Shown here piece after piece: positions 10,168-51,023 of a stretch of DNA of 64,000 nt. Origin of the DNA: an uncultured Bacteroidales bacterium (lineage in GTDB: Bacteria > Bacteroidota > Bacteroidia > Bacteroidales > CAIXZF01); NCBI GenBank assembly GCA_903923925.1, contig CAIXZF010000035.1, forward strand, positions 124,001-188,000, written 5' to 3'. A program made the position numbers and the translations under genes. The notes beneath the pieces are model-generated. The model had not been told where the DNA came from, did not search any database, and saw only the letters and a list, made by a program, of their open reading frames with translations. Position 1 is the first letter of the stretch, and each line of letters opens with the position of its first letter.

Positions 10168-10175
10168 TATCTTTG
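10168..10175 (+). promoter_or_regulatory. -7 promoter box (TATCTTTG) of the MgtE_N/CBS-NRAMP operon
   Basis: TATCTTTG is an exact match to TANNTTTG. No perfect -33 element lies at the usual distance. Transcription would start near 10180, so the first large gene has a leader of about 150 bases, far longer than the 5-40 bases implied at most other promoters in this window. The leader contains a 13-codon ORF and a hairpin. Confidence 0.5.
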
Positions 10176-10240
10176 CACCTGAGGCATGTTTTTTAATATG
10201 CTGAAAATGACTAGTTTAGATAATTAATAAGAATACGAAA

Positions 10241-10282
10241 ATGGACGATGGACCTGCGGGTAAACCTGAAATTATAATATAA
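10241..10282 (+). CDS. Putative leader peptide MDDGPAGKPEIII
   Basis: A 13-codon ORF in the long leader of the MgtE_N/CBS-NRAMP operon, with an A-rich upstream context (GAATACGAAA) of the kind Bacteroidota ribosomes use. The peptide begins with two Asp residues and has two Pro residues and a Glu before three Ile codons (ATT ATA ATA). In enterobacteria the mgtA leader peptide MgtL, also acidic and proline-rich, destabilises translating ribosomes at low Mg2+ and so switches the downstream gene. A similar role here is inference from composition and context only; an ORF of this length can occur by chance. Confidence 0.35.
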   Translation: MDDGPAGKPEIII

Positions 10283-10285
10283 ATC

Positions 10286-10323
10286 GCGGAGTGTTGTCCT
10301 ATCCGATTGAGGCATCTTTCCGC
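10286..10323 (+). promoter_or_regulatory. Hairpin in leader just before the CBS gene start
   Basis: GCGGA at 10286-10290 pairs perfectly with TCCGC at 10319-10323, enclosing 28 bases in which CCT and AGG can form a short inner stem. It begins 4 bases after the leader-peptide stop codon and ends 8 bases before the first ATG of the downstream gene, so it could respond to ribosome position and hide the start region. There is no T-run after it, so it does not look like an intrinsic terminator. I see no match to the M-box or to the yybP-ykoY manganese riboswitch cores. Confidence 0.35.
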
Positions 10324-10330
10324 TAAAAAC

Positions 10331-11608
10331 ATGGAAGGAATTGCTATGACCTCGATCAACACCTTTTACCTTAGCCGTATTATCGGTCATAAGGTAGTAT
10401 CAGAGCATAGAAAAGCAGTTGGGAAGTTAATGGATCTGGCCGTTGAAATGAATTCAGTCAGGCCCAGGGTTATTGCAGCCAAAGTAAAGTTTGGATCTCA
10501 GCCTATTCTCATCGATTTTGCCAATCTAACTGTTCAGAAACACAACAGCCAGTACCACATTGAATGCAGCCGAATAGAAGAAGTTGATACTCCTAAGGAT
10601 AACGTGTTATTCCTGATGAAACACGTTATGGATAAGCAGATTGTTGACATTGACGGAAGAAAACTTGAACGTGTAAATGATATCAGACTAGCTTACCTTT
10701 CCTCTGGCTTATTTGTTGTAGCTGTTGATGTTGGTACAGAAGGTCTGTTTCGAAGACTTTCAATGTCGAAATCAATAAACAAGGGACTAAAACCATTTGG
10801 TACAGCTTTACCCAGCAAGCTTATTTTATGGGATGATGTTGCTGCAATTGGTTTATCCAATGAAGGAATAAAACTTTCAAAAGAGCAAAGTAAACTTGAA
10901 ACTCTCCATCCTTCGGATCTCGCTGATATTCTGGAAGACCTTGATCATAAAACACAAGTTGCCGTTTTTGAATCCCTTGATGAAGAAAAAGCAGCTGATG
11001 TTCTTGAAGAAATGGAGACAGAAGCTCAGGTAAACCTCCTCGAGAGTTTATCTGTGGAAAAAGCTGCCGACGTGCTCGAAAAAATGCCGGCAGATGAGGT
11101 TGCTGATATTCTTGATGACCTCGAAAAGGAAAGAGTAGAGGAGCTTCTGGAGGAAATGGAGGATACTGCTTCTGATGAAGTTAGGGAACTTATGGAGTAC
11201 CCCGAGAATTCTGTCGGAAGCCTGATGACAACAGATTTCTTTAGTTTCAATGAAAAAATGACAGTCGATGAAACGCTTAAAGAACTTCGCAGGCTAAAAC
11301 CACCTTCAGATTCTATCTATTACCTTTATGTGCTGGATGATCTGGATAGACTTGTTGCTACCGTTTCGCTCAGAGACCTGATTGTTGCTGAACCAAGTAC
11401 TTCCCTGGAACAGATCATGAACAGGAAAGTTATAAAAGTTCATGATAATGAACGAATAGATTCCCTGGCTGAGATCATTTCAAAATACAACCTTATCGCA
11501 ATTCCTGTAATTGATAAAAAACAAAAAATGGCTGGAATGGTAATTATTGATGACGTTGTATTTACGTTGCTTAAAACCAGGCGTAGAAAAACTCTAAAGG
11601 AAGATTGA
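10331..11608 (+). CDS. PRC-barrel / MgtE N-terminal / CBS-pair regulatory protein
   Basis: About 425 residues with no membrane segments. Two PRC-barrel-like beta domains come first (about residues 10-150, e.g. LSRIIGHKVVSEHRKAVGK and DIDGRKLERVNDIRLAYL), then an MgtE_N superhelical domain (about 190-300) of repeated LADIL/AADVL units (LHPSDLADILEDL, EKAADVLEEM, DEVADILDDL), then a CBS pair (about 300-415). In MgtE the MgtE_N and CBS modules bind Mg2+ and gate the channel; here the channel domain is missing and a separate NRAMP-related transporter gene starts 1 base later. It therefore probably senses Mg2+ for that transporter. The start is 10331 (A-rich context, MEGIAM) or 10346 (MTSINTF, preceded by AAGGA); a TTG at 10307 is unlikely. 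Confidence 0.82.
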   Translation: MEGIAMTSINTFYLSRIIGHKVVSEHRKAVGKLMDLAVEMNSVRPRVIAAKVKFGSQPILIDFANLTVQKHNSQYHIECSRIEEVDTPKDNVLFLMKHVMDKQIVDIDGRKLERVNDIRLAYLSSGLFVVAVDVGTEGLFRRLSMSKSINKGLKPFGTALPSKLILWDDVAAIGLSNEGIKLSKEQSKLETLHPSDLADILEDLDHKTQVAVFESLDEEKAADVLEEMETEAQVNLLESLSVEKAADVLEKMPADEVADILDDLEKERVEELLEEMEDTASDEVRELMEYPENSVGSLMTTDFFSFNEKMTVDETLKELRRLKPPSDSIYYLYVLDDLDRLVATVSLRDLIVAEPSTSLEQIMNRKVIKVHDNERIDSLAEIISKYNLIAIPVIDKKQKMAGMVIIDDVVFTLLKTRRRKTLKED

Positions 11609-11609
11609 G

Positions 11610-12863
11610 ATGATGCTAGCCCAGAAAACCAAGCGAATATCAATTGGTCGGAGAATTGCCATTTTTATGGCTATTCTGGGTCCTGGTATTATAACCGGCA
11701 GTGTGGATAATGATGCAGGAGGCATAACTACATATTCTGTTGCAGGAGCTGTTTATGGATACAATATGTTGTGGACCTTATTGCCTGCTTTTATTGTTCT
11801 CATCGTGGTTCAGGAAATGAATGCCAGAATGGGAATCGTTACAGGCAAAGGTCTTGCGGATTTAATCCGGGAAAATGCACGTGTTAAGCTATCTTTTCTA
11901 ATTTTTGCTGCCCTTCTTCTTACAGACCTTGGGAATACTACTACCGAATTTGCTGGTGTTGCTGGTAGCATGGCGGTTTTTGGAGTCAGCAAATATATTT
12001 CTGTACCTCTGGTTGGCTTTGGAGTCTGGTTACTTGCTTTGCGCGGAACATACCGTTTCATCGAAAAAGTGTTCCTGATATTCAGTGTATTCCTGCTAAC
12101 ATATGTGGTTTCTGCATTCCTTGGGAAACCTCATTGGTCAGAAATTGGACATGCGCTGATTAGCCCTAAAATTGAACTAAATATCGCCTACATTACTATG
12201 GTAGTTGGTATTATCGGAACTACAATAGCACCATGGATGCAGTTTTATATGCAAAGTGCAGTAATTGAGAAGGGCCTTAAACAGGAAGATTATAAGTTTG
12301 CTGTCGTTGATGTTATTATTGGTTGTATCGCAACTGTTGTTGTTGCCTTTTTTATCATTGTTGCTTGCGGGGCTACTCTCCATCAGAACGGCGTTACAAT
12401 AAATGAAGCTAAGGATGCTGCCTTATCTCTTAAACCTCTTGCTGGTAATTTTGCTTCGCAGGTTTTTGCCTTTGGTTTGTTTGTTGCATCTGTTTTTGCT
12501 GCTACTGTGCTTCCCGTGGCCACCTCTTTCTATATCTGCCAGGCATTTGGCTTTGAGGCTGGACTTGATAAAAAATTCAAAGAAGCTCCACAGTTTTATT
12601 CGCTATATACCTTCATGCTTGTCGTGTCAATGGGAATTATTCTAATTCCTGATGCTCCTTTGATTCAGATAACGATTTGGTCGCAGGTTTTGAATGGGGT
12701 ATTATTACCTGTTGTTTTGGTAAGTATGATGTTGCTAATCAACAAGAAAGAGATTATGGGAGAGTATACGAATAACTCTTTGCAGAATATAATTGGATGG
12801 TCAACTGTTATCATTCTGGTTGGATTATCCCTTACTCTTGTCGTTTTAAATGTGTTTACTTAA
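11610..12863 (+). CDS. NRAMP-related divalent metal transporter, probable Mg2+ type (NRMT)
   Basis: A 417-residue inner-membrane protein with about 11 hydrophobic segments and the NRAMP/SLC11 fold (GPGIITGSVDNDAGG in TM1, GIVTGKGLADL after TM2). The ion-binding motifs are not canonical: DPGN of TM1 is DNDA, and the MPHN-type motif of TM6 is APWM (GTTIAPWMQFY), so the metal-coordinating Met is Ala. In NRAMP-related magnesium transporters loss of this Met goes with transport of Mg2+ rather than Mn2+/Fe2+. The start codon comes 1 base after the stop of the MgtE_N/CBS gene, so the two are translationally coupled, which also points to Mg2+. Transport of another hard cation cannot be excluded. Confidence 0.85.
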   Translation: MMLAQKTKRISIGRRIAIFMAILGPGIITGSVDNDAGGITTYSVAGAVYGYNMLWTLLPAFIVLIVVQEMNARMGIVTGKGLADLIRENARVKLSFLIFAALLLTDLGNTTTEFAGVAGSMAVFGVSKYISVPLVGFGVWLLALRGTYRFIEKVFLIFSVFLLTYVVSAFLGKPHWSEIGHALISPKIELNIAYITMVVGIIGTTIAPWMQFYMQSAVIEKGLKQEDYKFAVVDVIIGCIATVVVAFFIIVACGATLHQNGVTINEAKDAALSLKPLAGNFASQVFAFGLFVASVFAATVLPVATSFYICQAFGFEAGLDKKFKEAPQFYSLYTFMLVVSMGIILIPDAPLIQITIWSQVLNGVLLPVVLVSMMLLINKKEIMGEYTNNSLQNIIGWSTVIILVGLSLTLVVLNVFT

Positions 12864-31691: not shown

Positions 31692-34600
31692 TTATTGAGC
31701 AAGGGTAAATCTTAGTGTTATACCTCCGTTTGTTGTGGAGTTTGGATAGGAAGACGAAATGTATGGTTTATTGATAATTTTATCAAAGAATAACCTAACA
31801 TTGAACCGTTGATTAATCATGTATTCCGCAGATGTATTTATAGAAATTACTTTCTGTCCTGCCGAAATCTGATCAATGTCTTCATCAATACGTCTCAAGG
31901 TCGTTTTATTATTCTTTATCGAAAAATCAGCCTTCACATTAAGGTCGCTTTTGATTTTTGTCTTTTTACCGCCATTTACAGGCTTAACAGTAAACTGAAC
32001 GTCCTTAAACCGATAACCTATGCCAACAACAAACTCATTGCTCAGAACTTCTGTTAACTGATTATTTGTGAAACTAAAAGACATATTCCTGGTCTTTTTA
32101 ATCTCAATCTTAGTCATCAGACTGTTATTCCATGTCAGGTCAAAATCGATCAACGGATTAAATTGTTCACTGATTGAAACAGCCTGAATCTGATATTGAG
32201 AAATGAAGTTATTGATAGTGTTCAACTCCGATGCAAATCCACCACTTTCACCATATAAGAGGTCAGAGGTAAAATTCCCCACACTGTAAGTCGAACGGTA
32301 ACCATGAGAAATATTGATATTTTTCAAATAACGTTTAAGGAATTCAATCTTTGTTAATCCATTAAATGTTACTCTCCAGTTTGGCATCGGAATTTTCGGA
32401 AACGGGCTAAGCATAACGCTGCTTGCACTTCTACCGGAATAAGCTGAAAGGAAGGCAGGGATTAGCACTTCCTGAGAAGTAGGACTGTAGCCGGAAGGAT
32501 AACCTGTACTGTCTGTTGTATTTCCATTCCAGTTAGGATTCTGTTCTGCAAGTCTCCATGCAATTTCCATCCTGTTCTCTCTCATTTTATTAAACACTGG
32601 CGAAATATTATCGGAAGTATTTTTGGTGAAGGCAGTATTCCAGCTTAGGAAAGAAATACTGAATGTACCATTCGTAGTTGGCGAAGAATGTTTGAACATC
32701 TCCGTAGACTTGTTGTAAACAAAGTATTCCTGGTGATTTTGCGTATACGTTCGGGTTGCAGTGAGCTCTATCCTCATATCCTGGTATGGCTCCAATGTAG
32801 CCCTGATATTGAGGTTCTCATTCATTTTTGTACTGTAGGATGCATTAAGTGCAGTATCCGTGGTCAACCATTCAATGAAATCTTCAGGACCATTTGGTTG
32901 CTGACCAAATACAAAACCCAATCCCGGCGCATCCATTTTCATATCATTTCCAAAATACTGAGGCACAGGAACGAAACCCGGTAATAAAGTTCCTTCACCT
33001 TTTTGATAGGTAACAGAACCATTTTTTAAACTTGTCAGAATCCTGAATGTGTTCTTTGTAATCTCTTTTAACCAATCAATTTTGGGCTTCTTTGTTTTTG
33101 CAGTATCTGCTTCGGGAGTATTGGACAATTTCCCTTTATCATCGGTCTTTGCACCCTTAGGCTTAGGACCGGCTTTAGGAGGTTGTTTGTTATCGATACC
33201 AAGTTTTTTCAGGAATCCTATCTTATTGTAAAGTGTCGTCATATTCAAACTTCCATTGAATTGTTTCATGTTTGAATTTTCAATAGTGTTTCCGAATCTA
33301 GCTTGTAAGGATTTAGGCGAGGCTGTCCACCTGTAGTCGCTGCTGTACATTACTGAAGCAGACACAAAGCTTAAAAGAGGGATCTTGTTTATTGGCAGGT
33401 TGTAATTTATATCCAGTGATTGTGTATAGTTATTCATAGTGCCGAAGCCATAAATCTCTTTTAATACACTGTCTTTGTAAGCCTGGTAAGTATTGGCTGC
33501 CTTGTCAATTGCTCCCGGTGGTTCATGAATATAAGCTGCTGCATTGGCAGAATAATCAACGCGTATACTTTGTGTTAAATCGAATTTCAGATCGTAAACA
33601 CGGGTCCAATCCCACTTTTTCAGGTAAGTAGGAAAAATGATGATATCTCCGATACTTTTCTTACGCATCAGCCTCTCAGAGTATTCCCTGTTCATATCTG
33701 TTCTGAACGACATTAATTTCGGTGCATAAAAGAAATTAAAATCAGAAATCAACTTCAATGCCTTAGTCTTATTCAGAAAACCTATACCAGAAAGAGGCCT
33801 TACATTCTTCGGATTGAGTGTAAAATTATATCCTAAACCACCCCGGTAAGTTTTCTTCGAATCATATTGGATATCAATGTTTCTGTGGAAAATTTCTGAG
33901 TAAGCATAGGTAACATCAAAATTCTCAATATCATAAAAATGCATCTTTTTATTTTCACCAACCTTTTCCCTGCGTACGTTCATGAAATTGATGTTTTTAC
34001 GCCTGGTATAGTCAATGGCAATGTTTTTAATTGAGTCGCGCTCAGCCTGAGTTTCATATGAAGCAATATCATCCTTGAAGTTAACATCCGGGTTTAAAGG
34101 GTTGTACTCAGGAACACTGCGTTTCTCTGAATAATCAATGTGCATTGGTATTTTTAACCCGGCCTGCTTTGGAAGAAGCTTGCCAACTTCAAGATTTGTG
34201 GCAATATCAAATTGTGCTGTTGTTTCCTTCTGTCGTTCATTTACTTTTTGCTCTATACTTCCAAAACCGGCAGTACTGTAAAGCCCCGACACCACAACAT
34301 TACCCAGATCAGCCAGGTTCGTGTTTACACGGGCAGTAGCAGCCCATCCGCCTTTTTCATTAAAATCGGTTAAACGTAACTCATTCACCCATATTTCAGC
34401 ACATTTCGTCTGGGCATCATCTGGTTCCGAGATACCATGTTTTCTCGGATTACGCACTCCAATCATAATTGCTTTAACCTCGCTAAGACTTGGCATGCCC
34501 ACAACTGTAATTTTATTGTCCCCATCATCAACAACATAGGGCATTGATGTGGAAACTACACTGCCACCGCCTCTTAATGCTACATTTCTCTCCTGTTTTG

Positions 34601-37600
34601 CATTTACAAGTTTATCAAGTGTAATATCAAAAGTGTTTGATGATGGCCAGATATCGTCAACATTAGACGCACTGGTGAACCATGGTGTAAACTGAAGAGG
34701 AACCTCGTACTCATAATAGTTCTGTGTGAAGTCAGACCCAATCCGGATGAAACATGTCAGATCTCCTTTAGGATAGGAATCCGCACCTGGGTTGTCTGTT
34801 CCTGAATATGATTTTTCGGCGTGTACATACATTTTCAGATGTTTGAACTTACGGAAGTCAAAATCAGTTGTTTTAAAAGCTGCACGGGCATCGCCATCTT
34901 CTAAATTACATACTTTGAAAAGCATTGATTGCTCATTCAGTTGTTGTAAGGTAGTTGTTCCAAGGTTTATTTCCCTTTCGATATCAGGAGGTATTACATA
35001 AGGTACCGGTACTTTTTTTCCATTCTCCTCGATACTCACTGTTGACATGTCAAAAGAAGTCAGACTATTAATATCATTTGGAATATATTCCCCCGGAGCA
35101 AGCAATTGGTAAGGGTATTTACGCCATTCACTTCTTACAAGTTCGAATGTAGCCATACGGCAAACCACAGGGCTGCGGAAACCTTTAAAAAACATCCTGA
35201 GAAAACGAATTGATTTAAAATCCTGGATATTCCCTACAACTTTATCAGGGCTTGACACAGGAATTTTAAACTGATACCAGGTAACTGTACCTGTTGATCC
35301 GTTTGCGAGAGGAATTCCTTCTGCTGTATATTTGTCAGCAATATAGTTTTCGCCAACTTTCATTTTACTGGAATCCAGTTCGATCCGGTATTGGTAATAC
35401 CTTTCTTCCTCACTAAGAGTATTGTCACGGTTTATATCTTCTTCATTCGGGACATTGGTGGCAGCAGTTGGATAGCCCTCAGGATTTTGTGCATCAGTAG
35501 GGGAGTTGCCATCTGGTTGATTATATTTTTTATAGCGTTCCAATACGCTGGTATAAACACTGTTTGGATCATCATAATCACTGCCTCTGAAATAATGGTA
35601 ATCATCTCCTGACGGGTCTGCAGAGGCTTTCTGGTAAGCAACTGAACCTGTTCCGTAAGTGTTGGCAATTTTGGCAAGGTATGTGCTGCTAAAGAAGGAC
35701 TGCTCATCTGCATCACTTAATCCATCATACCCAATATCCTGAAACTCCCTAGATGCAGGATCATTATTGAAAGAATTTACCAGTGCTGTTAATGTTGGGA
35801 CTCGGCCCCATATGGTAGTATCAACGTTTGTAACTGTAGAAGTAGTTGGTAAACCCTGCTCAAAACTTTTCCTTGAATCACGTAAAATGTCTTCAGAAAT
35901 ATCACCCAGATCCATTACCAATTGACCTTTATTGCCTTTATCAGCATTATCGGTAAATGGATCCATCATCCAGAATTCAATATATTCAACATTTGTAGCC
36001 TCAAAATCTGTAGTTTCAATTTTTCGCATTATACCACCCCATCTTGTCTCAGGCTGCTTTAATTTTCCTTCATTGTCAATACCATATGAAATACCAGCTT
36101 CACCATCAACATCATAATTGTAAGGTCCTCTGTCTTCAGGATAAAACGCGAGGTTAAATATTGGCAGATTCATTGGTTGTCCGTTGGCCGGCTGCTTATT
36201 TGGGAAAACCTCAGTTTCAATAACATCACGAACAAGGTTTTTCGAAATTTCATCTTTGCTAACATTACCAGGTCTTAAACTGGATCCGGTACGGTCATAA
36301 AAAATAGGCTCAATTGTATACCAGGCTAATTTTGCTCTGTTAAAGCCATATTTCAGACCGCTCCCTGGCAATGCTTCCTTAAAATCATCTGGTTGTCCCT
36401 GCGGTGTTGATGCTAAGAACCATGTTCCGACATTTTTTAAATCGATAGTCGATTTTGTTCCTTCAAAATCATCAATATACGTTGTGCCACTTTTACCAAC
36501 AGCTTTGGAATGGCCTGGAATAAAATCAGCAAACTCACCCTCGATTGTAATTTTAGAAGGAGCTTTTGTTGAATAGAATGGAAGTTTATCAAGCATTTTG
36601 GTGATAAATGGGGACTCAGTCTGATAATTAAAATCAAAACCTGCAATAGTATTTGAAATTGGCTCATCGCCATAGTTAACTTTCTGAGTAAGAGGACGCT
36701 CTGTTAGATTCAGCAATGTAGCACCCAGATTAAGATCTTTGTTCACTTTATGATCAACATGAATACCCCATAAACGCTTCGTCTGGATATTAAACATTGA
36801 ATTGTTCTCAAGAGAAATCTTAATAGGATTACCAGAATTGAGAATTCCCTCGTCTATAATTTTTACCCTGCCTAAGGTGTAATCCACTGTATATTGAACA
36901 TTTTCAGTAAGTGGAATTCCTCCTGCAGTCACTTTTACAGATCCCTGTGGTACATTAATAGCATTTAGGGCAATTTCTGATCCTGAGGCTGATTTGTACT
37001 TTCCTTCAATTATGAACTTATTTTTATCAGGATATTGCTGGGCTCCACTTTTGGTCATTGTATAGAGCGAATCAAAACAATACTTGTTTGCCAGTTCATT
37101 ATCCATGAGACTATCTCTCAGAACAGAACCGAAAGGTTCAAGTACTGGAAAATAAATTCTGCCGTTAGATGAATTTATGGTTCCACCAGTTCTGGCAGCA
37201 TTGTCAATAAAATCAAAAACACCATCACCTGGTGGATTCATCATTTGATCAACATTGTCAAGATTCATCACTCCAATCAAAGGACGGCCTTTTATCCTGC
37301 CTTCGGTCAGATATCCTGTTGGAATCCCATTTTCGTTACCTGAATATAAGATGTTTAGTATAAAATCTTCCTTATTAACCTGATATGCTCCTATCGAATA
37401 AACGTTTTTCATCATAAGTTTCCAGAGAGGCAAACGTGTGTTGGTAGCTGTACTCTTCAACAACTTAACAACAAGGCATTTAGGAGATGTAATTCCCTGA
37501 TCTGAAAATTCACCAACCTGGAATACACTGTCCTGTCCGATAACCTGGTATTGATAAGCAACTGCCAGAGTCTGATCTGAATTTAAAGTAGTATTTATGG

Positions 37601-38963
37601 AAATGAAACCAAGTTTACTGTTAAAAGAATACTCTGATTGATTCAGTTTTCTTGCACTTTCTATTTTAGTATAGTCCTCTCCTGAAGTAAATCCAAATAC
37701 ACCTGTAAGATAATCGGTTACCGTATTAATGTTCCGGATTTTCGATGTATCCATCTGCTGCATCAGGTCGTTCGATTTATTCGAAGGATATTGCCCGCCT
37801 GCTAAGGAATTGATCTTTGGATTGAAAGGATAATATTCGCCCAAGTCTGAAAAAGCAACAAGATTTCTGTTGTCGGTAACTGCCGGGCCAATATTTGTTA
37901 TCCAGACTTCAATTTTGGTTATATTAACAGGTGAATTGATTATCGGCAATTCTGCAAGTGAGGAATTGAATTTTTCCCTGAAATGTTGTGCAAGGAAAAA
38001 GTGCCTGTTATCCTCGTATTGATCTGCAGTTAATTTAAAATCGTGTAACTGCGCCCCTCCCTCAACTGTAATAGTTTGACTTTCACTTTTTTGTTGAGAA
38101 AAAACACCGGTAACCATCGTTTTACCAAATTGGAGTTTCGTTTTTATTCCAAAAAGGCTCTGACTTCCTGTGATAAGCGTGCTGTTAAGAGGTAATGTTA
38201 CATCGCCTGCCTCAATTAATTTTATAATTTCATCTTCTTTACCTTCGTATTTTAATTTCAGTTTATTCTCAAATTCGAAAGTTGCTTCAGTATTGTAATT
38301 TGTTTTGAACTCAATTTTATCGCCAATTTTAGCGATAACACTCATCTGAATTTTCTCCTGAAAATCGAAATTTGTTTGTCTGCGTTGCCTTATATCAAGG
38401 GCAGGATCGTCGCGGCGGTTCGAAAGAACGCCAAATGTAAGTTCGGCAGATCCACTCGGTCTGATATCAACAGTGTTTCCTCCGAAAATTCTGTCGAAAA
38501 CTTCTCCTCCTACTTTGAGAGCAGGCAGAAAAGCATTACGTTTTTCATTCCCAGTGGTATTTGAGCGTTGCTGCCAATAATTATTAAGGGAATTTCGAAG
38601 GTCGTAATTCATATACTCCTCGAATGTCATGTAATTCGGAGTACGGTAATACTGATCTCCAATTTTCTCCAGGAAATAATACCTGTTTGTAACAGGATCG
38701 TATTCAACTGATGAGCTAATATTTGGCGGATTTTGCAGATATAGCCCACTCTGAGGCTGTTGTCCGGAGAAAATCGGATTTTCAGGCTTTAGTGGATAGG
38801 CTAGTTGAGTATTGCCAGGTTTGCTGGTATCGCCGGGGGTGGTGTCAGGTGGTAATTGGCGATGAGTTTCTATGAAATTATTAATTTCTCCACTTCCGTA
38901 TACAGCAGAAAAGATTAACAAAGTAAAGATTGATCTTAGGATATATTTTATCGTTCGCTCCAA
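31692..38963 (-). CDS. sprA: T9SS outer-membrane translocon / gliding protein SprA
   Basis: A 2423-residue giant barrel protein that forms the outer-membrane channel of the type IX secretion system. After a signal peptide (LRSIFTLLIFSAVYG, about 9-23) come the conserved repeats of the family: the segment with GGNTVDIRPSGSAELTFG, IGDKIEFKTNYNTEATF, GNTVDI, SYSGTDNPGADSYPKGDL, and a strand-rich C-terminal half ending in ITLRFTLAQ with a typical barrel C-terminus. The size agrees with known SprA/Sov (about 2400-2500). No ATG is available: the only possible start in frame after the upstream stop is TTG at 38963. ruvA lies 32 bases upstream on the same strand. The T9SS cargo proteins in this window are its probable substrates. 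Confidence 0.95.
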   Translation of the reverse strand: MERTIKYILRSIFTLLIFSAVYGSGEINNFIETHRQLPPDTTPGDTSKPGNTQLAYPLKPENPIFSGQQPQSGLYLQNPPNISSSVEYDPVTNRYYFLEKIGDQYYRTPNYMTFEEYMNYDLRNSLNNYWQQRSNTTGNEKRNAFLPALKVGGEVFDRIFGGNTVDIRPSGSAELTFGVLSNRRDDPALDIRQRRQTNFDFQEKIQMSVIAKIGDKIEFKTNYNTEATFEFENKLKLKYEGKEDEIIKLIEAGDVTLPLNSTLITGSQSLFGIKTKLQFGKTMVTGVFSQQKSESQTITVEGGAQLHDFKLTADQYEDNRHFFLAQHFREKFNSSLAELPIINSPVNITKIEVWITNIGPAVTDNRNLVAFSDLGEYYPFNPKINSLAGGQYPSNKSNDLMQQMDTSKIRNINTVTDYLTGVFGFTSGEDYTKIESARKLNQSEYSFNSKLGFISINTTLNSDQTLAVAYQYQVIGQDSVFQVGEFSDQGITSPKCLVVKLLKSTATNTRLPLWKLMMKNVYSIGAYQVNKEDFILNILYSGNENGIPTGYLTEGRIKGRPLIGVMNLDNVDQMMNPPGDGVFDFIDNAARTGGTINSSNGRIYFPVLEPFGSVLRDSLMDNELANKYCFDSLYTMTKSGAQQYPDKNKFIIEGKYKSASGSEIALNAINVPQGSVKVTAGGIPLTENVQYTVDYTLGRVKIIDEGILNSGNPIKISLENNSMFNIQTKRLWGIHVDHKVNKDLNLGATLLNLTERPLTQKVNYGDEPISNTIAGFDFNYQTESPFITKMLDKLPFYSTKAPSKITIEGEFADFIPGHSKAVGKSGTTYIDDFEGTKSTIDLKNVGTWFLASTPQGQPDDFKEALPGSGLKYGFNRAKLAWYTIEPIFYDRTGSSLRPGNVSKDEISKNLVRDVIETEVFPNKQPANGQPMNLPIFNLAFYPEDRGPYNYDVDGEAGISYGIDNEGKLKQPETRWGGIMRKIETTDFEATNVEYIEFWMMDPFTDNADKGNKGQLVMDLGDISEDILRDSRKSFEQGLPTTSTVTNVDTTIWGRVPTLTALVNSFNNDPASREFQDIGYDGLSDADEQSFFSSTYLAKIANTYGTGSVAYQKASADPSGDDYHYFRGSDYDDPNSVYTSVLERYKKYNQPDGNSPTDAQNPEGYPTAATNVPNEEDINRDNTLSEEERYYQYRIELDSSKMKVGENYIADKYTAEGIPLANGSTGTVTWYQFKIPVSSPDKVVGNIQDFKSIRFLRMFFKGFRSPVVCRMATFELVRSEWRKYPYQLLAPGEYIPNDINSLTSFDMSTVSIEENGKKVPVPYVIPPDIEREINLGTTTLQQLNEQSMLFKVCNLEDGDARAAFKTTDFDFRKFKHLKMYVHAEKSYSGTDNPGADSYPKGDLTCFIRIGSDFTQNYYEYEVPLQFTPWFTSASNVDDIWPSSNTFDITLDKLVNAKQERNVALRGGGSVVSTSMPYVVDDGDNKITVVGMPSLSEVKAIMIGVRNPRKHGISEPDDAQTKCAEIWVNELRLTDFNEKGGWAATARVNTNLADLGNVVVSGLYSTAGFGSIEQKVNERQKETTAQFDIATNLEVGKLLPKQAGLKIPMHIDYSEKRSVPEYNPLNPDVNFKDDIASYETQAERDSIKNIAIDYTRRKNINFMNVRREKVGENKKMHFYDIENFDVTYAYSEIFHRNIDIQYDSKKTYRGGLGYNFTLNPKNVRPLSGIGFLNKTKALKLISDFNFFYAPKLMSFRTDMNREYSERLMRKKSIGDIIIFPTYLKKWDWTRVYDLKFDLTQSIRVDYSANAAAYIHEPPGAIDKAANTYQAYKDSVLKEIYGFGTMNNYTQSLDINYNLPINKIPLLSFVSASVMYSSDYRWTASPKSLQARFGNTIENSNMKQFNGSLNMTTLYNKIGFLKKLGIDNKQPPKAGPKPKGAKTDDKGKLSNTPEADTAKTKKPKIDWLKEITKNTFRILTSLKNGSVTYQKGEGTLLPGFVPVPQYFGNDMKMDAPGLGFVFGQQPNGPEDFIEWLTTDTALNASYSTKMNENLNIRATLEPYQDMRIELTATRTYTQNHQEYFVYNKSTEMFKHSSPTTNGTFSISFLSWNTAFTKNTSDNISPVFNKMRENRMEIAWRLAEQNPNWNGNTTDSTGYPSGYSPTSQEVLIPAFLSAYSGRSASSVMLSPFPKIPMPNWRVTFNGLTKIEFLKRYLKNINISHGYRSTYSVGNFTSDLLYGESGGFASELNTINNFISQYQIQAVSISEQFNPLIDFDLTWNNSLMTKIEIKKTRNMSFSFTNNQLTEVLSNEFVVGIGYRFKDVQFTVKPVNGGKKTKIKSDLNVKADFSIKNNKTTLRRIDEDIDQISAGQKVISINTSAEYMINQRFNVRLFFDKIINKPYISSSYPNSTTNGGITLRFTLAQ

Positions 38964-49955: not shown

Positions 49956-51023
49956 ATGAAGAACCAACGAAAAAAAATCTCAGTTAAAGCAGGTATGCCA
50001 CCTGGTTCAATGGTGCACATTGGAAAACATTCAACTGTTTTTCCTCAAATACACCTGTTTAATTATTCTCAGTCAAATGTTGATGAAACTGAAATAACAG
50101 ACCTTGCCCAGATTGAGCCTTATCTTCTAAAACCGGAAACTGTTACATGGGTTGATATGAAAGGACTCAATCACCTTGAAACTGTTGAGGCTATTGGTCA
50201 GCTATTTAATATTCATCCTTTAGTCCTTGAAGATATTGTTAATGCTGAACAACGTCCGAAATTTGAAGATTACGACAGTTACCTCTTTTTTACGTTGAAA
50301 ACTATGGAGGTTAATGGAGAAATGTTTAAAGTTGAATATGGCCAGATTAGCATTTTAGTTGGTAAAAATTTCGTTGTTACTTTCCAGGAAAAAAGCAATA
50401 ATTTATTTGGTACAATTCGGAATCGATTACTAAGTGGCGCAAGTCGTGCAAGGTCGCGAAAACCTGATTTTCTTGTTTACCTGATAGTTGATACTATTGT
50501 AGATGCTTATTTTCAGGTAGTTGAGAAATTTTCAGATATTCTTGAAGATGTTGAAGAAAAAATGTTGAATGATGATAGCGGGAAGAGTATTCTAAATTTG
50601 CAGGCTTTACGGCGGAATCTTTCGCAGCTGTTAAGAACTCTTTATCCTTTGCGTGAAGCTCTCTCCCGTCTTGAAAAACGTGATTGCAAGCTATTGTTTC
50701 CAGAAACCCTGATTTTTTTCAGAGATATTTATGATCATACTATTCATTTGATCGAATCAATAGAAAATCAACGCGATATACTTTCAGGCGCAATGGATGT
50801 TTACCTAACCACGATTAACAATCGTATGAATGGTATCATGAAAGTACTTACGATTATTGCAACTATTTTTATTCCTTTGTCGTTTATAGCTTCTGTTTAT
50901 GGCATGAATTTCCAGAATTTCCCTGAACTTACATGGAGATTCGGATATTTGTACTTCTGGATTTTAATTCTGGTGATAATTGGTATTATGTTTTATTATT
51001 TTAAGCGTAAGAAATGGATGTAG
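49956..51023 (+). CDS. corA: CorA-type Mg2+/Co2+ channel
   Basis: A 355-residue pentameric inner-membrane channel. A large cytosolic alpha/beta and helical funnel domain (1-295) is followed by two C-terminal membrane helices with the signature YGMN (315-318) at their junction, then FQNFPEL and a basic tail KRKKWM. The N-terminal LEDIVNAEQRPKFEDYD and DVEEKMLNDD are typical of the COG0598 proteins with both Mg2+ and Co2+ transport. This gives the window two candidate Mg2+ uptake systems (the other at 11.6 kb). The next gene overlaps its last 10 bases. Confidence 0.94.
   Translation: MKNQRKKISVKAGMPPGSMVHIGKHSTVFPQIHLFNYSQSNVDETEITDLAQIEPYLLKPETVTWVDMKGLNHLETVEAIGQLFNIHPLVLEDIVNAEQRPKFEDYDSYLFFTLKTMEVNGEMFKVEYGQISILVGKNFVVTFQEKSNNLFGTIRNRLLSGASRARSRKPDFLVYLIVDTIVDAYFQVVEKFSDILEDVEEKMLNDDSGKSILNLQALRRNLSQLLRTLYPLREALSRLEKRDCKLLFPETLIFFRDIYDHTIHLIESIENQRDILSGAMDVYLTTINNRMNGIMKVLTIIATIFIPLSFIASVYGMNFQNFPELTWRFGYLYFWILILVIIGIMFYYFKRKKWM

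Follow-up and report, generated by a model that had tools for sequence, protein, structure and literature searches.

How is Mg2+ uptake controlled where a sensor has been parted from its channel? The question is raised by two adjoining genes of an uncultured Bacteroidales bacterium, lying in a 64,000-nucleotide stretch of contig CAIXZF010000035.1 (hereafter, the window). The first gene (REG) encodes a soluble relative of the Mg2+-sensing part of MgtE, the second (NRMT) an NRAMP-related transporter, and both follow a long leader (Table 1). The initial annotation, made from the sequence alone, proposed an undescribed Mg2+ homeostasis operon in which the displaced sensor gates a transporter of another fold. 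The comparative analysis points to the leader: the operon is probably a Mg2+ uptake unit (REG and NRMT) under a Mg2+-sensing leader peptide of the MgtL/MgtQ kind, acting as a translation attenuator.

Table 1. Leader features and genes of the REG-NRMT operon (positions in the window)
Feature	Position	Strand	Basis
-7 promoter box, Bacteroidota type, TATCTTTG	10168..10175	+	TAnnTTTG consensus; predicted transcript start a few bases downstream
Upstream open reading frame (uORF), 13 codons, MDDGPAGKPEIII then stop, acidic/proline leader peptide	10241..10282	+	Counterparts in 40/46 REG leaders
Anti-sequestor hairpin, 5' arm, starting 3 nt past the uORF stop, within the footprint of a terminating ribosome	10286..10291	+	Predicted
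Sequestor hairpin, 5' arm, GGCATCTTTCCG, complementary to the REG Shine-Dalgarno	10311..10322	+	Predicted; coevolution test
Anti-sequestor hairpin, 3' arm, TTCCGC, overlapping the arm that pairs with the Shine-Dalgarno	10318..10323	+	Predicted
Sequestor hairpin, 3' arm, containing the REG Shine-Dalgarno GGAAGGA	10332..10345	+	Predicted
REG: PRC barrel, second beta domain, MgtE_N and CBS pair; soluble, Mg2+ sensor-like	10346..11608	+	Pfam, structure model, homologue residues
NRMT: NRAMP-related Mg2+ transporter	11610..12863	+	Pfam Nramp 1.3e-94; EleNRMT (7qia) E 3.5e-109; tree

The sensor-like protein and its transporter

The ATG at 10346 is the likelier start of REG because it has a Shine-Dalgarno (SD) sequence and agrees with the homologues; the TTG at 10307, the start given in the list of open reading frames, is an unlikely one. 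Within the resulting 420 residues, Pfam finds the PRC (1.3e-7), MgtE_N (2.4e-27) and CBS (4.2e-13) domains and no C-terminal MgtE channel domain, as initially described. The AlphaFold model (mean pLDDT 83) consists of an N-terminal beta barrel, a second beta domain (residues 86-161, approximately), a linker of low confidence (166-183), the MgtE_N helices, and the CBS pair. It matches the Mg2+-bound cytosolic domain of MgtE with a target TM-score of 0.80 over about 230 residues. REG thus resembles this domain in T. thermophilus (2yvy) by its MgtE_N and CBS fold, but lacks the channel and carries two additional N-terminal beta domains. No second MgtE_N protein was found in the host's own genome.

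Sensor residues were counted in 47 close REG homologues, using the numbering of T. thermophilus MgtE, in which E59, D91, D95, and D247 belong to the sites Mg7, Mg4, Mg6, and Mg4, respectively (PMC5882242), and Phe227 stacks ATP (PMC5529423). Acids are retained at these four ligand positions: the E59 position is acidic (Asp) in 47/47 homologues, D91 in 40/47, D95 in 47/47, and D247 in 46/46 (one gap). The Mg5 ligand D226, by contrast, is Asn in 45 of the 47, and Phe227 is replaced by Leu or Met. At the position of D250, nine of the 47, including the REG of the window, have Phe. REG is still a plausible Mg2+ sensor, with altered sites.

A single base separates the REG stop codon (TGA, 11606-11608) from the NRMT start codon (ATG, 11610), in agreement with the first reading. 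The best solved relative of NRMT in a phmmer search is EleNRMT of Eggerthella lenta (7qia, 3.5e-109), with the next chain at 5.6e-26; the match covers 400 residues and includes an identical TM6 stretch, TTIAPWM, and the Asp-Ala-Gly-Gly of TM1. The signature of NRMTs (M to A in TM6, N to G in TM1, and A to T ahead of the TM6 site; PMC8806188) is present in the window protein (NDAGG and TTIAPWM, as in EleNRMT), while MntH copies retain DPGN and MPHN. Alignment with MntH places DAGG (in VDNDAGG) opposite DPGN and APWM opposite MPHN, so that the motifs first reported are there, but the TM1 register, given as DNDA for DPGN, was off by two. In the tree, the MntH copies split from the NRMT group with a support of 1.0; among them is the host's only other NRAMP, which is of the MntH type (L001). 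Match, signature, and tree together bear out the assignment of the protein to the NRMT family, and Mg2+ transport is predicted for it. The EleNRMT paper (PMC8806188) mentions neither an operon nor a CBS partner.

The claim that the operon is undescribed fails, since the gene pair and the feedback idea have been in print since 2014. Shin et al. (2014; PMC4072509) placed NrmT genes next to a gene for an MgtE N-domain and suggested feedback control. As in the window, these operons pair an NRAMP-descended Mg2+ transporter with a soluble MgtE N-domain protein, whereas the leaders recognised there are M-box riboswitches and that of the window contains a uORF; the paper names no PRC or CBS domain, and the passages considered here no uORF. 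It also reports Mn2+-transporter behaviour for the NRMT-family member from A. capsulatum. The protein pair alone is, therefore, one more member of a published kind. Four elements of the initial interpretation are supported: a Mg2+ homeostasis operon, an NRMT-type transporter, the retained MgtE-site acids, and the tight linkage of both genes.

This linkage, which the initial annotation had proposed to survey, is tight in Bacteroidota and Bacillota: close REG homologues lie directly 5' of NRMT in nearly all loci with checkable flanks (Bacteroidota, Alicyclobacillus). The exceptions are G996 (locus L005), where NRMT is located elsewhere than REG, and G021 and G1048, where REG is present and NRMT was not found in the assembly. 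In the latter two, REG (L047:2743-4008 and L163:6745-8019, respectively) has the uORF leader. The spread is patchy, with REG in 33/344 genomes of the host's order (E 1e-70) and 7/395 genomes of a class sample (E 1e-45). No natural REG-NRMT fusion occurs among the loci encountered. On a Tsukamurella plasmid (L078:3001-4814), the gene of a distant REG homologue overlaps that of a DUF1003 protein, as if the sensor module paired with other proteins as well. On two further plasmids, from two phyla (Citrobacter IncHI1B, L076; Cellulomonas, L079), NRMT and REG adjoin an ArsR-family regulator and a heavy-metal P-type ATPase.

Control could reside in the proteins only, REG binding NRMT and closing it at high Mg2+, with the PRC barrels as adaptor and the leader incidental. 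The cross-phylum linkage with almost no intergenic gap, the retained Mg4/Mg6/Mg7-type acids, and the structural match to Mg2+-bound MgtE all fit such gating. As the sole mechanism it is nonetheless unlikely: the conserved uORF and stems of the leader would be left unexplained, G021 and G1048 have REG and no NRMT that was found, and, in Shin et al. (2014; PMC4072509), a Mg2+ uptake mutant was rescued no further when the MgtE-like protein was added to the A. capsulatum transporter. Gating of NRMT by REG is compatible with leader-peptide control, and both may hold.

A conserved uORF and two predicted competing hairpins in the leader

The leader was rightly called long, with about 170 nt between the -7 box (10168-10175) and REG, but the uORF inside it had been missed. 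It was first spotted by side-by-side reading of REG upstream regions from many genomes, and 19 leaders of this first set contain it. A rule was written from these: the frame has 7-30 codons and begins 80-165 nt ahead of REG, codon 2 is acidic, two acids fall within codons 2-4, and a proline within codons 3-5. It was fixed before being applied to the second set, which comprises 25 loci of the host's order. Among the 24 usable leaders of this set, 22 pass, including L129, which is identical to L005. With these two counted once, a counterpart is present in 40 of the 46 REG leaders from Bacteroidota; all 40 peptides have Asp2, with two acids among residues 2-4 and proline among residues 3-5.

None of 482 upstream regions of other ORFs on the same DNA passes the rule (513 regions minus 31 matches, all 31 ahead of REG), nor does any of 32 leaders of Bacteroidota MgtE proper, or any of 28 CorA leaders, even with a looser rule; the CorA gene of the window itself (49956-51023) has a leader without such a uORF. 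Shuffled leaders pass in 6/2300 cases (0.26%). The six REG leaders lacking a qualifying uORF are L037, L049, L050, L082, L130 (one of the two second-set leaders that fail, reading MDPYPSR), and L143. In L082/L096 (G847), a locus with a close REG homologue, the leader is seemingly disrupted by short repeats (ATTAACAATTGACCATTGAC) and the uORF reads MDVCQWLMVNC. The distant f139 group, in which REG is about 30% identical and the transporter lies upstream, shows no such uORF 5' of the transporter. A frame starting MDDPGSNSTT upstream of a distant NRMT (L092, G646), far off and longer, is possibly another case.

A TAnnTTTG box precedes the uORF in 38/40 leaders (shuffled rate 6.75%), mostly 33-36 nt ahead of its start, which puts the uORF close to where the transcript begins; in the window, this distance is 73 nt.

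Several features of the uORF bear on whether peptide or RNA is under selection. Codon 2 encodes Asp in 40/40, through GAC or GAT; Pro5 is missing in four peptides only, all of which have Pro3 instead (the MDPD type: MDPDS, MDPDT, VDPDG); lengths vary from 10 to 23 codons, and L087 starts with GTG. When alignment columns are permuted, the acid/proline rule is kept in a mean of 11.1 and a maximum of 15 of 19 distinct sequences, compared with 19/19 observed. Identity between leaders is 0.64 over the first seven uORF codons, versus 0.34 in most flanks. The two Asp codons, the exchange of Pro3 and Pro5, the GTG start, and the column permutation thus point to selection acting on an acidic/proline peptide, of the type whose destabilising effect on ribosomes at low Mg2+ is known. 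The motif MDEGP is milder than the EPDP of MgtL (PMC11282234).

Between the uORF and REG, a pyrimidine-rich element has two predicted alternative partners: the uORF's end together with the bases after the stop (anti-sequestor), or the REG SD (sequestor). Against dinucleotide shuffles, the mean z-scores of the two stems, which overstate independence because the leaders are related, are -3.2 and -2.4, respectively, in the 19 leaders of the first set, and -2.55 and -2.31 in the second, where the stems share at least 4 bases in 18/21. In the window leader alone, the anti-sequestor has a predicted energy of -13.3 kcal/mol and the stems rise weakly above shuffles (z of -1.7 for the anti-sequestor and -0.5 for the sequestor). 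With a ribosome over the uORF stop, the unpaired probability of the REG SD is 0.02. Pair counting would depend on an alignment that is unreliable between uORF and SD, and was replaced by an arm-swap test: the two arms of a leader pair better with each other than with arms taken from other leaders, and 0/20,000 permutations do as well for either stem, a count that the relatedness of the leaders likewise inflates. Read as a sum rather than as probabilities, the stem statistics are strong.

The anti-sequestor arm includes the uORF stop codon in many leaders, and a terminating ribosome must open it there. The predicted stems are mutually exclusive, coevolving, and tied to the uORF and the REG SD, and control of REG is predicted from them. 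Free-energy folding favours the sequestor in most full leaders, and the ON state would, therefore, rely on co-transcriptional folding.

Upstream of a Mg2+ gene, a conserved leader block with alternative, riboswitch-like hairpins is also what an RNA aptamer would present, be it a new riboswitch for Mg2+ or for another ligand, the open frame then being coincidental. This is very unlikely, as conservation follows codons: Asp2 is written in two ways, proline moves between codons 3 and 5, L087 uses GTG, and the frame closes after 10-23 codons. Furthermore, an Rfam search detects no known riboswitch in the REG leaders, and the M-box covariance model (RF00380) has no match in the window at gathering score, while the same kind of search finds the M-box in the Bacillota loci L006 and L077.

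Magnesium as the candidate signal

Other loci support Mg2+ as the signal of the leader peptide. In the orthologous operons of Alicyclobacillus, the corresponding position is taken by an M-box Mg2+ riboswitch (159 and 145 bits). In G996, the split-off NRMT has a leader of its own, with MDDLPESILLINFEAEEIL and both stems. A canonical MgtE gene (L035:1338-1434, G049) is preceded by an acidic/proline uORF, MKDDPYSCCLINH, and two alternative stems (z of -4.0 and -4.8); this uORF passes the looser rule only, because its acids stand at codons 3-4.

The uORF might instead report on the supply of proline or aspartate, on EF-P, or on some other state of translation, through ribosomes that stall rather than fall off. 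Every uORF peptide contains proline, and ATP and charged tRNA-Pro act on the mgtM and mgtP leaders of Salmonella (PMC8092293). Such a signal is quite unlikely here, since each peptide has only one or two prolines, the acidic residues are more constant still, the downstream genes serve Mg2+ transport, and the M-box takes the place of the uORF in Bacillota.

With a Mg2+-sensing leader peptide, the switch would work as follows. At ample Mg2+, the ribosome would read the uORF to its end and sit on the stop codon, blocking the anti-sequestor; the pyrimidine-rich arm would then pair with the REG SD, and the operon would be off. At low Mg2+, the nascent M-D-(D/E/P)-x-P would destabilise the 70S ribosome and cause drop-off within the first codons, so that the end of the uORF would be freed, the anti-sequestor could form, and the released SD would allow REG and NRMT to be made. 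A second feedback on NRMT, at the protein level, may come from REG, which keeps part of its Mg2+ sites. We infer uORF translation, Mg2+-dependent drop-off, the direction of switching, and the gating of NRMT by REG from sequence comparison.

A close parallel is mgtQ, in the mgtCBRU operon of Salmonella (Choi et al. 2021; PMC8092293), a very short ORF whose Asp2, Pro4, and Glu5 recall the Asp2, proline, and second acidic residue of the window uORF. It acts through alternative stem-loops, which free the sequestered RBS of the Mg2+ transporter gene mgtB on ribosome abort; the same arrangement is predicted for the window leader. While mgtQ has 8 codons and lies between genes, before mgtB, in Enterobacterales, the Bacteroidota uORFs have 10-23 codons and lie at the transcript 5' end, before an MgtE-like sensor and NRMT. 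MgtL of mgtA (E. coli, Salmonella) also combines an acidic/proline peptide start with a downstream Mg2+ transporter, and the MDPD and MDPEP variants are nearly identical to its EPDP motif. MgtL works via Rho-dependent transcription termination, whereas hiding and freeing of the SD is predicted for the REG leader.

To our knowledge, sensing of low Mg2+ by the ribosome itself, via a leader peptide, has been described so far only in enterobacteria. It seems reasonably likely, if somewhat less so than the reading of the operon itself, that Bacteroidota evolved such peptides (M-D-x-x-P or M-D-P-D) independently: a ribosome fall-off sensor coupled to a two-hairpin translation attenuator, at the place of the Bacillota M-box, following a split-off transporter, and recurring before at least one canonical MgtE (L035). 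No acidic/proline Mg2+ leader of Bacteroidota was found in the literature searched, which includes few subscription journals, so that an earlier description is possible; the leader, very probably a Mg2+-sensing uORF attenuator, is new for Bacteroidota and NRMT as far as this literature shows, the protein pair being of a known kind.

If true, Mg2+ sensing through the stability of the translating ribosome would be a recurrent solution, found again in a far-removed phylum and for another transporter, rather than an enterobacterial oddity. One orthologous operon would have two Mg2+ sensors in two phyla, a riboswitch and a leader peptide. Some forty natural destabilising peptides would become available to define which nascent chains cause ribosome fall-off, and the leader would directly mark the NRMT of these species as a Mg2+ gene.

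Elsewhere in the window, positions 31692-38963 encode a SprA-type (motility/secretion) protein of 2423 aa, ordinary for Bacteroidota.
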